This document shows, one piece after another, positions 27,424-40,668 of a DNA stretch of 64,000 nucleotides. Position 1 is the stretch's first letter, and every line of letters starts with the position of its first letter. This DNA comes from Novosphingobium kaempferiae (GTDB taxonomy: Bacteria > Pseudomonadota > Alphaproteobacteria > Sphingomonadales > Sphingomonadaceae). Where the stretch lies: contig NZ_CP089301.1 of the NCBI RefSeq assembly GCF_021227995.1, forward strand, positions 4,216,001-4,280,000. The letters run 5' to 3'. The notes beneath the pieces are model-generated. The model searched no databases, was not told where the DNA came from, and saw only the letters and a program-made list of their open reading frames with translations. Made by a program: the position numbers and the translations under genes.

Positions 27424-27507
27424 GCGGGCGTGGCGGAATGGTAGACGCTGCGGACTTAAAATCCGCTTGGGTATCCAGTGCGGGTTCGAGTCCCGCCGCC
27501 CGCACCA
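27424..27507 (+). tRNA. tRNA-Leu (anticodon UAA)
   Basis: 84 nt with encoded CCA. The acceptor stem is GCGGGCG/CGCCCGC (27424-27430 with 27497-27503) and the discriminator is A. The anticodon stem GCGGA/TCCGC encloses the loop CTTAAAA, with anticodon TAA at 27457-27459. The T-arm is GCGGG-TTCGAGT-CCCGC at 27480-27496. The long variable arm (27467-27479) fits a class II leucine tRNA. Confidence 0.95.
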
Positions 27508-37302: not shown

Positions 37303-37500
37303 TCAGTAGAGGTGCGGAGAGAAGACCTTCAGCACCAGCTTCCCATCGGCACGGATCGCGCCGAGAGTGCTCTCTTCCCGAGGGGCATCACGGTCTCCCG
37401 AAGTCCTGAACAGACCGAGCGACACGGCCATGGCGACCGCGATGGCCACGGCGGCGCCCAGCCATGCTCCCCTTCTGCGCCGCTGCGGGCCGGTAGCCAT
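37303..37500 (-). CDS. Small single-helix membrane protein
   Basis: 65 residues: a basic N-terminus (QRRRRGAW), one membrane helix (~13-32), then a short polar tail ending FSPHLY. ATG at 37500 overlaps the XRE gene's stop in TGATG, which fixes the start. Third gene of the XRE cassette. No recognised family. Confidence 0.7.
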   Translation of the reverse strand: MATGPQRRRRGAWLGAAVAIAVAMAVSLGLFRTSGDRDAPREESTLGAIRADGKLVLKVFSPHLY

Positions 37501-37694
37501 CACTCACCCCTCTGGAAGATATCCTCGATCGCCATACCAAAGACATCGGCGATGCGGAAGGCCAGCGGCAAAGAGGGATCGTAACGCCCCGTCTCGATCG
37601 CATTGACGCTCTGGCGGGAGACTTCCAGCCTTTCGGCAAGTTCCTGCTGGCTCCAGCCACGTTCGGCGCGGAGCACCTTGAGGCGGTTCTTCAA
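37500..37694 (-). CDS. XRE-family helix-turn-helix regulator with TTG start
   Basis: 64-residue Cro/C1-type DNA-binding protein (YozG-like): KVLRAERGWSQQELAERLEVSRQSVNAIE covers the whole HTH, quoted here as WSQQELAERLEV and SRQSVNAIETGRYDPS. It ends ADVFGMAIEDIF. The start is TTG at 37694 with GGAGGGA 3 nt upstream, overlapping the upstream gene's TGA (TTGA). A much longer frame upstream is a shadow of the neighbouring membrane gene. It probably autoregulates its operon. Confidence 0.88.
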   Translation of the reverse strand: MKNRLKVLRAERGWSQQELAERLEVSRQSVNAIETGRYDPSLPLAFRIADVFGMAIEDIFQRGE

Positions 37695-38275
37695 CGCTCC
37701 CTCCAGCGGACAAAGGCGCTGCCGAGCCCGAGCCCGATGGCCCAGACGGGAATCGCGGCCCATCCTGCGACATGCGGGACGAGGCGGAAGGTCTCCAGAA
37801 AGCCCCAGAGCGTGGCCAGGCCCAGCAGCAGGCCCGTCGCCCAGAGCGCCGCGGTGACGACGCGCATGCGGAGGTATTCGTCGGTTTCCTCCACCAGATA
37901 GCGCGCCATCGCCCAGAGCAGGTAGAGGATCGGCAGCGCCGGCAGGACCGCCAGCAGCCACAACAGTGCCCCATTAGCACCCGCCTTGGCCCCGGCTATC
38001 GCGACGAAGAGCAGCACCATGTACGCGAACGACCAGGCCATCGCCCGCCGGTTGTAGCGGCGGGTTGCCGGAGACAGCGATCCGCATGCCCCCTGCGCCC
38101 GCTCGGTCGCGCGGCGGAAGGGTATCAGCAGCAGCATCGGCGGCACCATGACCGCCATCGACGCCACGGTGCCGAATTGCAGCGCCCGCGCCATCAGCCC
38201 GGCGCCGAACATCCCGACGAAGAAGGCCGCACCCCACAGCCACACGGGTCGACGATCGACTGCTTCACGTTCCAT
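37691..38275 (-). CDS. Four-helix membrane protein adjacent to XRE regulator
   Basis: 194-residue inner-membrane protein with four to six hydrophobic segments (e.g. LWGAAFFVGMFGAGLMA and MVPPMLLLIPF), a basic cytoplasmic stretch (RRATERAQGACG) and an acidic loop (YLVEETDEYLRMR). It resembles membrane proteins often encoded beside YozG-type XRE regulators; the function is not known. First gene of the cassette; AAGGGAACTTGTC precedes ATG 38275. Its promoter lies in the 401-bp gap shared with thrS. Confidence 0.7.
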   Translation of the reverse strand: MEREAVDRRPVWLWGAAFFVGMFGAGLMARALQFGTVASMAVMVPPMLLLIPFRRATERAQGACGSLSPATRRYNRRAMAWSFAYMVLLFVAIAGAKAGANGALLWLLAVLPALPILYLLWAMARYLVEETDEYLRMRVVTAALWATGLLLGLATLWGFLETFRLVPHVAGWAAIPVWAIGLGLGSAFVRWRER

Positions 38276-38330
38276 GACAAGTTCCCTTGCTTAGATGTAA
38301 AGTTTATTTGTCATTGTTGTGCATCGAAGT

Positions 38331-38363
38331 CAAGCTTCATTGACATTATGAAAATGATGCTTG
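38331..38363. promoter_or_regulatory. Inverted repeat over -35 of thrS leader; possible operator
   Basis: CAAGCTTCATT (38331-38341) and AATGATGCTTG (38353-38363) are inverted copies with one mismatch, 11 nt apart. TTGACA at 38340-38345 could be a -35 for rightward transcription, although no good -10 is seen at 16-18 nt. On the other strand TTGACT (38328-38333) could serve the XRE cassette. Either could be an operator for the XRE regulator. Confidence 0.5.
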
Positions 38364-38428
38364 TCTCACGAAACGCCCGCAGCCGCGAACCTTGGCTTTC
38401 CTCCGCCGAATCGCTACATGCACCGACG

Positions 38429-38497
38429 ATGACGCACGCGCGCACCACGACTACCCGCACTACCCGGCTCGTCCGGGCACGGTCGGTCGCGGGCTGA
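38429..38497 (+). CDS. Threonine-rich leader peptide of thrS (attenuator)
   Basis: 22 codons, MTHARTTTTRTTRLVRARSVAG split as MTHARTTTTRTT and RLVRARSVAG. Seven of 22 residues are threonine, with four Thr codons in a row. A four-codon mini-ORF starting at 38418 ends in the same ATGA. It has no good ribosome site. The stop is 180 nt before the thrS start chosen here, with hairpin-forming sequence in between. Threonine starvation would stall ribosomes on the Thr codons and favour read-through into thrS. Leader-peptide attenuation is established for biosynthetic operons; its use for thrS here is inferred. Confidence 0.72.
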   Translation: MTHARTTTTRTTRLVRARSVAG

Positions 38498-38591
38498 GTT
38501 CGCGTCGCCGCCGTCGCCCGGATTTCGGGCGAGGCCGGCGTCTCTCTCCCGAAACAGAGCCAATTTAGCCGACGCCGCACCTTCACCCGGA

Positions 38592-38625
38592 GGCGCGCCT
38601 GTGCCATGGCGCGCCCAAGGATTTT
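38592..38625 (+). terminator. Candidate attenuator hairpin before thrS
   Basis: GGCGCGCC-TGTGCCAT-GGCGCGCC forms an 8-bp, all-G/C stem (38592-38615), followed by CAAGGATTTT with a short T4 run at 38622-38625. It lies 52 nt before the chosen thrS start and follows the threonine-rich leader peptide, as expected for an attenuator terminator. Confidence 0.55.
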
Positions 38626-38676
38626 CCGCCCACATGCTCTGGTATGGCATGGGGCAAACGAGAGATGAGTTCGTCC

Positions 38677-40668
38677 ATGTCCGAGATGTTCAAGATCAGC
38701 CTGCCCGACGGTTCGGTCCGCGAGATGCCCGAGGGCTCGACCCCGGCCGACGTCGCCGCCGCCATCGGCCCCGGCCTCGCCAAGGCGGCCCTCGCCGCAA
38801 AGATCGACGGTGAGCTGGTCGACCTCAGCCGTCCCTTCACCGGCGACGCCAGCCTTGCGCTCGTGACCAGCCGCGACGAGGCAGAGGCGCTGGACCTTGC
38901 CCGGCATGACTACGCGCACGTCCTCGCCGAAGCGGTGCAGGCGCTGTTCCCCGGAACGCAGATCACCTTCGGCCCTTCGACGGACGATGGCTTCTACTAC
39001 GATTTCGCACCCAAGGATCGCCCGTTCACGGACGAGGATCTGCCCGCGATCGAGGCGGAGATGCGCAGGATCATCGCCGCCAACAAGCCGCTGCGCCGCG
39101 AGGTGTGGGACCGCGAACAGCTCATCAGCCGCTGGAAGCAGCAGGGTGAGAGCTTCAAGGCGGAATGGGCCGCCGAACTCCCCGGCGACGAGCCGCTGAC
39201 GGTCTACTGGTCGGGCGACGACTGGCTCGACATGTGCCGCGGTCCGCACCTGCCCTCGACCGGCAAGCTGGACCCCGCCGCCTTCAAGCTGACGCGCGTT
39301 TCGGGCGCCTACTGGCGCGGCGACCAGAACAACGCGATGCTTTCGCGCATCTACGGCACCGGCTGGCTGAACAAGAAGCAGCTTGCCGAGCACCTGATGC
39401 GCCTTGAGGAAGCCGCCAAGCGCGACCACCGCAAGCTCGGCAACGAGATGGACCTGTTCCACCTCCAGCACGAAGCGCACGGTTCGGTGTTCTGGCACCC
39501 CAAGGGCTACGTGATCTACCGCGCGCTTGAGGACTACATGCGCCGCGCCATCAGCAAGGCCGACTGCAAGGAGGTCAAGACCCCGCAGGTCATGGACGCG
39601 CGCCAGTGGGAGCAGTCCGGCCACTGGGGCAAGTACCGCGAGAACATGTTCGTCATCCCCGACGAAGTGCCCAACACCGAGGACGACGGCCCGATCATCT
39701 CGGACGATGCCGAGTGGATGGCGCTCAAGCCGATGAACTGCCCGGCGCACGTCCTGATCTTCAAGCAGGGCATCAAGTCCTACCGCGACCTGCCGCTGCG
39801 CATCGTCGAGAACGGCTGCTGCCATCGCAACGAACCGCACGGCGCGCTGCATGGCCTGATGCGCGTGCGCCAGTTCACGCAGGACGACGGCCACATCTTC
39901 TGCCGCGAAGATCAGATCGTCGGCGAAGTGCAGGCCTTCTGCGAGATGGCGGACAAGGTCTACCGGGACTTCGGCTTCACCTACGCGATCAAGCTGGCGC
40001 TGCGCCCGGACAACCGCATCGGCACCGACGAGCAGTGGGACAAGGCCGAAGCCGAACTGCGTGATGCCGTGGTTCGTGCGGGCCTCGCCACGCCGGAATA
40101 CGGCTGGGAGGAACTGCCGGGCGAAGGCGCGTTCTATGCGCCCAAGCTCGAATGGCACCTCACCGATGCGATCGGCCGCACCTGGCAGGTCGGCACGATC
40201 CAGTCGGACCGCATGCTGCCCGAGCGCCTCGACGCGCATTACATCGGCGAGGACGGTGAGAAGCACCGCCCGGTCATGCTGCACCGCGCCATCTTCGGCT
40301 CCTACGAGCGCTTCATCGGCATCCTGATCGAGCACTTCGCGGGCAGGCTGCCCGTGTGGCTCGCCCCGGTGCAGGCCGTGGTCGCGACGATCGTGTCGGA
40401 CGCCGACGGCTATGCGCAGGACGTGGCGCAGAAGCTCAGGGCGGCGGGCGTGCGCGTCGAAACCGACCTGCGCAACGAGAAGATCAACTACAAGGTGCGC
40501 GAACACTCGCTCAAGAAGGTTCCCCACCTCCTCGTCGTCGGCAAGCGCGAGGCGGAGGAGGGCACCGTCGCCCTGCGCACGCTGGGCGCCGAGCACCAGA
40601 AGGTCATGACCCTCGACGAAGCCATAGCGCTCCTGAAGGACGAGGCGACCGCCCCGGACCTCAAGTGA
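38677..40668 (+). CDS. thrS: Threonyl-tRNA synthetase
   Basis: 663-residue class II synthetase charging tRNA-Thr. It has the TGS domain ([14 protein letters not shown]), editing domain ([16 protein letters not shown]), [12 protein letters not shown], the catalytic core ([20 protein letters not shown], broken here as GNEMDLF and [10 protein letters not shown]) and the zinc-binding residues around [27 protein letters not shown] and [16 protein letters not shown] are motifs 2 and 3. The ATG at 38677 begins the usual family N-terminus; 38644 and 38665 are alternatives. It overlaps the next gene by GTGA. Confidence 0.97.

Follow-up and report, generated by a model that had tools for sequence, protein, structure and literature searches.

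Upstream of thrS in Novosphingobium kaempferiae, a short threonine-rich leader reading frame is followed by RNA segments with two mutually exclusive sets of partners. By its anatomy this resembles an attenuator of the his type, and at the level of sequence it is a conserved threonine-codon switch. We consider it probable, at roughly 70%, that a ribosome-dependent attenuator governs readthrough into thrS from P1, a promoter-like box before the leader. The analysis covered a 64,000-nt stretch of DNA, here called the window, from a genome that consists of a single 5.7-Mb contig. The following features of the locus are needed first.

38392..38419 (+): P1, promoter-like, with -35 TTGGC (38392-38396) and -10 GCTACAT (38413-38419)
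38429..38497 (+): threonine-rich leader ORF MTHARTTTTRTTRLVRARSVAG, 22 amino acids with 7 threonines; a threonine run is present in relatives
38665..40668 (+): thrS, threonine--tRNA ligase (NCBIfam TIGR00418), starting at 38665 or 38677

The threonine-rich leader before thrS

The identity of thrS was established by NCBIfam search (TIGR00418, 641.5 bits against a cut-off of 383.65), and the best named match of its product was ThrS of Novosphingobium beihaiensis, at 88% identity. Nucleotides 38665-38676 form an in-frame extension of the gene. An earlier note on this DNA had described a 22-codon ORF with seven threonine codons before thrS, and it lies at 38429-38497 (+) as described; a four-codon mini-ORF said to overlap the thrS start is absent, the ATGA overlap with the ATG at 38665 belonging to a 20-codon ORF at 38606-38668. 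Further upstream, an ORF on the opposite strand (37500-37961, -) with a helix-turn-helix-like stretch LKVLRAERGWSQQELAERLEVSRQSVNAIETGRYDPSLPLAFRIADVF overlaps a 194-amino-acid ORF (37691-38275) that is divergent from thrS and has no NCBIfam match. Elsewhere in the window, a tRNA-Leu with anticodon TAA occupies 27424-27507.

Because the leader frame stays open upstream as far as 37772 (241 codons), we place its start at 38429 from its position after the promoter box and from conservation. Within the 400 nt upstream of thrS, the densest short ORF reached six threonines in ten residues, a density found in 0 of 2,000 dinucleotide shuffles of those 400 nt (8 of 2,000 reached five). Across the whole window, 7 of 527 short ORFs (8-60 amino acids) reached five threonines in ten and none reached six, so that a single sequence by itself is weak evidence.

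Relatives supplied the comparison. A short ORF with at least five threonines in ten residues was present in 111 of the 257 regions examined before thrS, compared with 5 of 1,285 shuffled copies. The count of 111 is inexact in both directions because L107, L143, L198 and L205 were scored negative yet carry shorter threonine runs, three negatives have the element outside the 400 nt scanned, and L201 is probably a false positive at the end of another gene. Regions were counted if they held at least 200 nt upstream of thrS, which kept 257 of 259 (L007 and L078 were dropped); 238 came from the family or near relatives and 19 were other or unplaced (L059-L080 without L067, L073 and L078), some genomes, such as those of L004 and L117, being counted twice. 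All 111 positives fell among the 238. They reduced to 91 non-redundant loci, to 73 after filters for length, the D motif (described below) and redundancy, and to 69 aligned loci, with L082, L201, L241 and L252 left out of the alignment. Threonine counts across regions formed two peaks and rose to nine in ten; none of the other 19 residues had a second peak, and a few His- or Pro-rich ORFs probably reflect ACC runs read in another frame. Among the named carriers are N. beihaiensis, N. percolationis, Croceicoccus sediminis, Erythrobacter ramosus, Allopontixanthobacter sediminis, Blastomonas natatoria and Sphingomonas sp. 8AM.

At five aligned codon positions, ACN occurred in 55 of 67 loci and then in 64, 63, 68 and 67 of 69. 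The third bases of these codons were variable at the first four positions and nearly always C at the fifth; selection on threonine codons therefore fits the variation, and a DNA repeat does not. Conservation of the threonine codons, which the earlier note had proposed to check, held in the aligned relatives without loss among carriers, the element as a whole being absent from many relatives. The seven window ORFs with five threonines in ten might suggest that the leader arose by chance in GC-rich intergenic DNA or is a microsatellite of ACC units; the shuffles, the diverse third bases and the conservation across genera make this improbable in the extreme. In our reading, the C-terminal RGRxVA of the leader would overlap RNA segments.

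P1 in the window predicts a transcription start near 38426, with the leader ATG at 38429 and a gap of 9 nt between box and ATG. In 70 of the 91 non-redundant loci a GCTAnnT-type 7-mer preceded an in-frame start codon by 7-9 nt, a fraction that is approximate because the box pattern is loose and was defined after examples had been seen; 10 loci had no such box, and after shuffling of the 60 nt upstream it appeared in 33 of 1,620 cases. At a fixed distance before the box, nTGAC was conserved (T in 63, G in 65, A in 51 and C in 45 of 70). Since the box ends so close to the leader start, the leader is probably translated from a nearly leaderless mRNA. A strict sigma70 scan omitted P1 and listed 38274-38303 (+) instead (ATGACA, 18 nt, TAAAGT). 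No other consensus sigma70-like site lies close to the leader; this one, about 125 nt before the ATG, is a candidate alternative start for the leader transcript.

Two mutually exclusive RNA structures

Downstream of the threonine codons, six segments can be arranged as 1:2, 3:4 and 5:6 (helices A, B and C) or as 2:3 and 4:5, two mutually exclusive RNA states.

38463..38467 (+): segment 1, 5' arm of A (CCCGG), directly after the threonine codons
38473..38486 (+): segment 2, 3' arm of A and onward (CCGGGCACGGTCGG), within the leader ORF; its partner is segment 1 or 3
38511..38521 (+): segment 3, 5' arm of B (CCGTCGCCCGG), with covariation
38522..38532 (+): segment 4, loop and 3' arm of B (ATTTCGGGCGA); its partner is segment 3, or segment 5 through TTTCGGG (38523-38529)
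38536..38554 (+): segment 5, 5' arm of C, CGGCGTC (38536-38542), together with CCCGAAA (38548-38554)
38571..38577 (+): segment 6, 3' arm of C, GACGCCG, which closes a terminator-like stem

Two of these helices had been seen before: the hairpin TCGCCCGG-ATT-TCGGGCGA is indeed present at 38514-38532, as is the long-range stem CGGCGTC/GACGCCG (38536-38542 with 38571-38577). The earlier note lacked the pairing of segment 2 with segment 3 and that of the hairpin B loop with CCCGAAA at 38548-38554.

Covariation was assessed in an alignment of 69 loci (A1), with an unguided, APC-corrected G-test over all column pairs. The 20 best pairs included members of C (114:152, CG 61 and UA 8; 117:149), of 4:5 (97:130 and 99:128), of 2:3 (33:73 and 39:67) and of B (75:104), plus pairs outside any helix; clade effects explain some of the strong unguided pairs. 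Helix by helix, 79.2% of cells were paired in A, whose register shifts by one between clades, 92.9% in B across the 69 loci, 93.8% in C (both sides changed in 5 of 7 pairs), 82.3% in 2:3 (both sides changed in 8 of 11 pairs) and 92.9% in the 4:5 core, where pair 97:130 was UA in 24 and GC in 20.

Taken as whole states, A+B+C had 89.3% of its cells paired, with 61 double-change cells where shuffles averaged 25.6; for 2:3+4:5 the values were 86.3% and 83, against a shuffle average of 34.0. Sliding the partners by 1-3 columns lowered pairing to 39.7-50.8% for A+B+C and 33.7-54.8% for 2:3+4:5, a control that favours both structures because they were read from the same sequences. Pairs with double changes numbered 13 in A+B+C against 5-9 in the slides, and 12 in 2:3+4:5 against 7-13, slides +1 and +2 giving 13 each. 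Arms preferred their own partners to swapped ones in every helix (z of -8.2 for C, -5.3 for B, -10.6 for 4:5, -8.9 for 2:3 and -6.4 for A); this aligned version supersedes an earlier swap test with a crude hairpin finder (mean rank 0.34, chance 0.5). RNAalifold alone recovered only B and C, and single-sequence folds of the window's leader were slightly better than shuffles (z of -1.70 and -2.11). At the level of the family, covariation thus backs both exclusive states predicted from the sequences, and the competing hairpins sought by the earlier note exist within carriers as exclusive structures, both of them covarying.

Searches with covariance model R1 and strict filters, because of which weak relatives may be missed, found one significant match in the window (97.1 bits). 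In the family, R1 matched 40 of 119 genomes in 31 of 96 genera, leaving 79 of 119 without a match, and 39 of the 40 matches lay upstream of thrS; the fortieth (G156, E 9.4e-4) lay elsewhere. Thirty-six of the 39 ended 48-96 nt from the thrS match. The other three (G154, G207 and G248) lay farther off, at 568-584 nt, and an ORF of about 168 amino acids separates the element from thrS there. At L207, L210 and L211, an ORF of this length (MRYYIDTEFNG...) between switch and thrS starts about 11-14 nt past C; we take it by motif to be exonuclease-like, and the one of three that was searched had no Pfam match. A draw across the class gave R1 in 2 of 190 genomes, both of this family. The Rfam scan of the window yielded a single family at the gathering threshold, tRNA, and no Rfam leader or T-box match, the curated families including Thr_leader and T-box; the weak matches within 38300-38720 were P33 (E 4.6) and proV (E 3.7).

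The fate of transcription at stem C

We simulated the ribosome by barring the nucleotides beneath it from pairing, with folding at equilibrium and kinetics ignored. A ribosome at the stop codon (+12 nt) left C above 0.5 in 53 of 69 loci, and one stalled where the threonine run ends (+9 nt) did so in 12 of 69. The stalled result was sensitive to the footprint: with +12, 24 of 69 loci had C, and with +15 the fraction was 0.64. C also formed without a ribosome (fraction 0.49), and a ribosome early in the threonine run gave C in 20-35 of 69 loci. The mean probability of 4:5 was at most 0.32 in every simulated state. In the window itself, C went from 0.00 when stalled (+12) to 0.99 at the stop codon (+12); B stood at 0.87 in every masked fold, and 2:3 and 4:5 were both unformed in the stalled state.

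The mechanism that we propose would run as follows. When threonyl-tRNA is ample, the ribosome would reach the stop codon and mask segment 2, leaving 3:4 (B) and 5:6 (C) free to form, and C would halt transcription. When it is scarce, the ribosome would stall on the threonine codons and mask segment 1; 2:3 and 4:5 would then form, C would be blocked and polymerase would continue into thrS. We infer that thrS is raised when threonyl-tRNA runs short, and a weak downstream promoter, P2, would provide the basal supply.

Stem C lacks a U tract: exactly two T occurred in the next 10 nt in 44 of 69 loci and at least five in 2 of 69, which places it outside the class of intrinsic terminators. Transcription would stop at this terminator-like stem. 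A few Sphingomonas-type leaders (L036, L055 and L057) read CTCTTTTC right after C. Rho may instead decide the outcome of the same threonine-codon switch, a version that overlaps our main explanation and that we hold to be a lesser but substantial possibility: after leader translation, the C-rich loop of C and naked RNA would recruit Rho, and in the stalled state 4:5 would hide the region. The missing U tract is consistent with Rho, as are the composition of the C loop in the window (10 C and 4 G in 28 nt) and the U-tract terminators in two 20-kb stretches of the window, which were no commoner than in shuffles (11 against 9.1 and 6 against 7.8); the strong 5:6 covariation would not be needed by Rho alone.

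The earlier note had assigned termination to a G/C hairpin followed by TTTT. The palindrome GGCGCGCC is present at 38592-38615 and so is the TTTT (38622-38625), which begins 6 nt past the palindrome, and a T run at that place is inconsistent in the relatives examined. The palindrome is part of an element, D, of the form CTT-N16-TGTGCCA, and it looks more like a promoter than a terminator in its geometry; leader-negative relatives share it.

38582..38609 (+): P2 candidate, TTCACC (38582-38587), 15 nt, GCCATGG (38603-38609); start predicted near 38616-38618

With at most one mismatch, D occurred in 80 of 91 loci, and any other spacing from 10 to 23 gave at most 31 of 91. A slightly looser motif was present with at most one mismatch in 30 leader-negative regions, some of which are short-leader cases. 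At L272 and L275, a promoter-like CTTGGG...TTTGCCATAG with the geometry of P2 stands 30-33 nt before a pyruvate kinase gene. Across 21 genomes the D pattern had 59 matches, the reversed pattern 16; of 11 loci inspected, 2 were before pyruvate kinase, 1 before thrS and 8 without a clear promoter position. The still simpler TT-N19-G[CG][CT]A was found in 100 of 111 leader-positive regions (6.4 expected) and 61 of 125 leader-negative ones (9.2 expected), the third -35 base being G in 3 of the 100 and 36 of the 61. The strict sigma70 scan did not list P2. One leader-negative relative, L181, has tandem CTTCCGGCGAAGGCCGGTTTCTGCC units at the P2 position.

We therefore read D as a probable promoter: its spacing is fixed, relatives that lack the leader have it too, and it turns up again before pyruvate kinase genes, observations that disfavour an RNA terminator or an operator for the threonyl-tRNA synthetase (ThrRS). 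D would be a P2 that is weak in leader carriers; the preference of its arms for their own partner (z -6.5, n=82; z -2.8, n=30) stays unexplained. That preference is what one might expect if ThrRS repressed its own gene through the 5' region in the E. coli manner, with TGTGCCA as a putative anticodon-like loop, and among the 83 loci selected with at most two mismatches, TnTGCCA retains its T, T, G and A in 83, 82, 83 and 83. Self-repression is nevertheless very unlikely, given the promoter-like spacing that recurs before pyruvate kinase genes and a putative anticodon whose middle base varies (G 70, C 10).

A second promoter so close to thrS bears on how much the switch matters, and P2 could reduce it to a quantitatively minor role. 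P1 might serve chiefly to make a trans-acting product, a short leaderless mRNA or sRNA plus a putative peptide, with thrS transcribed from P2. The predicted P1 start at the leader ATG and the P2-like site in 100 of 111 leader-positive regions suit this proposal, for which rnTrpL/peTrpL of Sinorhizobium meliloti offers a precedent in the accessible text of PMC7298713; against it, a different gene follows C directly in L207, L210 and L211, and leader carriers have a poor -35 box in P2, its third base being C or T in 97 of 100. We regard it as unlikely. Those same three loci, where by eye about 11-14 nt separate C from the start codon after it, are compatible with control of translation initiation, C or its alternative hiding or freeing the ribosome-binding site of the next gene. 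We judge such control quite improbable, however, because in 36 of 39 cases 48-96 nt lie between the end of the element and the thrS match, and the 41 best paired columns include no antiparallel covarying set that joins the switch to the start of thrS.

Attenuation of readthrough from P1 stays our preferred reading. The leader-peptide attenuation of thrS advanced in the earlier note has strong support in the sequences; its termination step would be the stop at C just described, and the sequences do not support the terminator named there. In the fullest version of the model, a threonine attenuator of his layout that lacks an intrinsic terminator would stand between two promoters of thrS in about one third of the sampled Sphingomonadaceae (GTDB) genomes; we offer this tentatively, as a combination that is less likely than not to hold in all its parts. 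If it did, C would end beside the -35 of P2, and the switch may set both the number of P1 polymerases that reach thrS and how often they cross P2.

Candidate thrS attenuators elsewhere and known systems

Beyond the family, none of 16 loci from other Sphingomonadales families (L325-L340) reached five threonines in ten, and 4 of 86 from other orders did (L292-L317 and L341-L400): L317, L354, L384 and L390, the case of L390 being doubtful. L317 and L384 come from two species under one genus label in another alphaproteobacterial family.

L317: leader MFKRPTIETTATTTLLEGP, four-segment form before thrS, T6 after the last stem
L384: leader MTYPTTATMTTTATRCGGP, four-segment form before thrS, T6 after the last stem

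Their segments, picked by eye, gave energies (L317/L384, kcal/mol) of -10.8/-10.4 for 1:2, -16.7/-14.4 for 2:3 and -15.3/-20.1 for 3:4, and the fold of the whole L317 leader had z -1.32 against shuffles. With a stem followed by a U tract in both, they appear from their sequences to be classical thrS attenuators; if the fullest version of the model above holds, these T6-type elements would represent a separate answer, reached independently in another part of the class, to the same problem. At L354, in a further alphaproteobacterial family, a threonine-run ORF MRTHPVLRSTATTTTTATGGRWRMRA ends 253 nt before the thrS match and is followed by a ACGCCCCG/CGGGGCGT hairpin.

If the main reading is true, the family holds a threonine-sensing switch that is sharply defined by sequence and that one covariance model detects, in a group that includes organisms used in lignin and pollutant degradation; transcription start sites of one member, N. 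aromaticivorans, are the subject of PMC7471390, as its accessible text indicates. It also raises two questions: by what means GC-rich alphaproteobacterial attenuators that lack a U tract end transcription, and what effect a promoter has right behind an attenuator.

A literature search returned no thrS leader peptide in Alphaproteobacteria among the matches listed, as far as the accessible parts of those sources go, and the word thrS is absent from the main texts of PMC4833913, PMC8632094, PMC2965389, PMC4117421 and PMC10117765. We claim no priority, because Lopatovskaya et al. (2010), a study of attenuation in aminoacyl-tRNA operons, may already predict such a thrS leader.

The his attenuator of enteric bacteria has six segments, A-F. 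The element described here resembles it in the run of regulatory codons and in the layout of 1:2, 3:4 and 5:6 against 2:3 and 4:5, and differs in preceding an aminoacyl-tRNA synthetase gene, in its threonine codons, in having no U tract after the last stem and in the promoter-like P2 that follows. The synthetase operon pheST of E. coli is likewise controlled by leader-peptide attenuation, there with Phe codons, an intrinsic terminator and a gammaproteobacterial host. thrS itself is known mainly for autogenous repression and T-boxes; the E. coli operator and the Firmicutes T-box also control thrS, by binding protein or tRNA and with no leader peptide, the operator through tRNA-like domains that bind ThrRS and overlap the ribosome-binding site.

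Against that background, the earlier note had called a peptide-based thrS attenuator unusual, which holds, with one precedent. In Streptomyces lividans TK24, according to the accessible text of PMC8079986, thrL precedes thrS, is leaderless and has one hairpin and no U-rich sequence. The two systems share a leader with threonine codons before thrS and the lack of a U-rich sequence, and the leaderless start of thrL has a predicted counterpart here; thrL has only two threonine codons (MKRVRPFLETTPGFVPAR) and belongs to Actinobacteria, and the accessible part of that paper reports no alternative structures or covariation. The trpL transcript of S. meliloti is reported to begin with ATG (PMC7298713 and PMC10117765, in their accessible portions), so that rnTrpL/peTrpL matches our leader in its alphaproteobacterial host and in an mRNA that begins at its ATG, as predicted to within a few nt for ours, and differs in its Trp codons, in its gene, trpE(G), and in having an attenuator sRNA and a peptide with trans functions. 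Other synthetase genes are preceded by leader ORFs too, for other amino acids and in other hosts: the available text of PMC1262725 describes trpS and leuS attenuators in some Streptomyces, and that of PMC4117421 a small CDS before trpS in Caulobacter.
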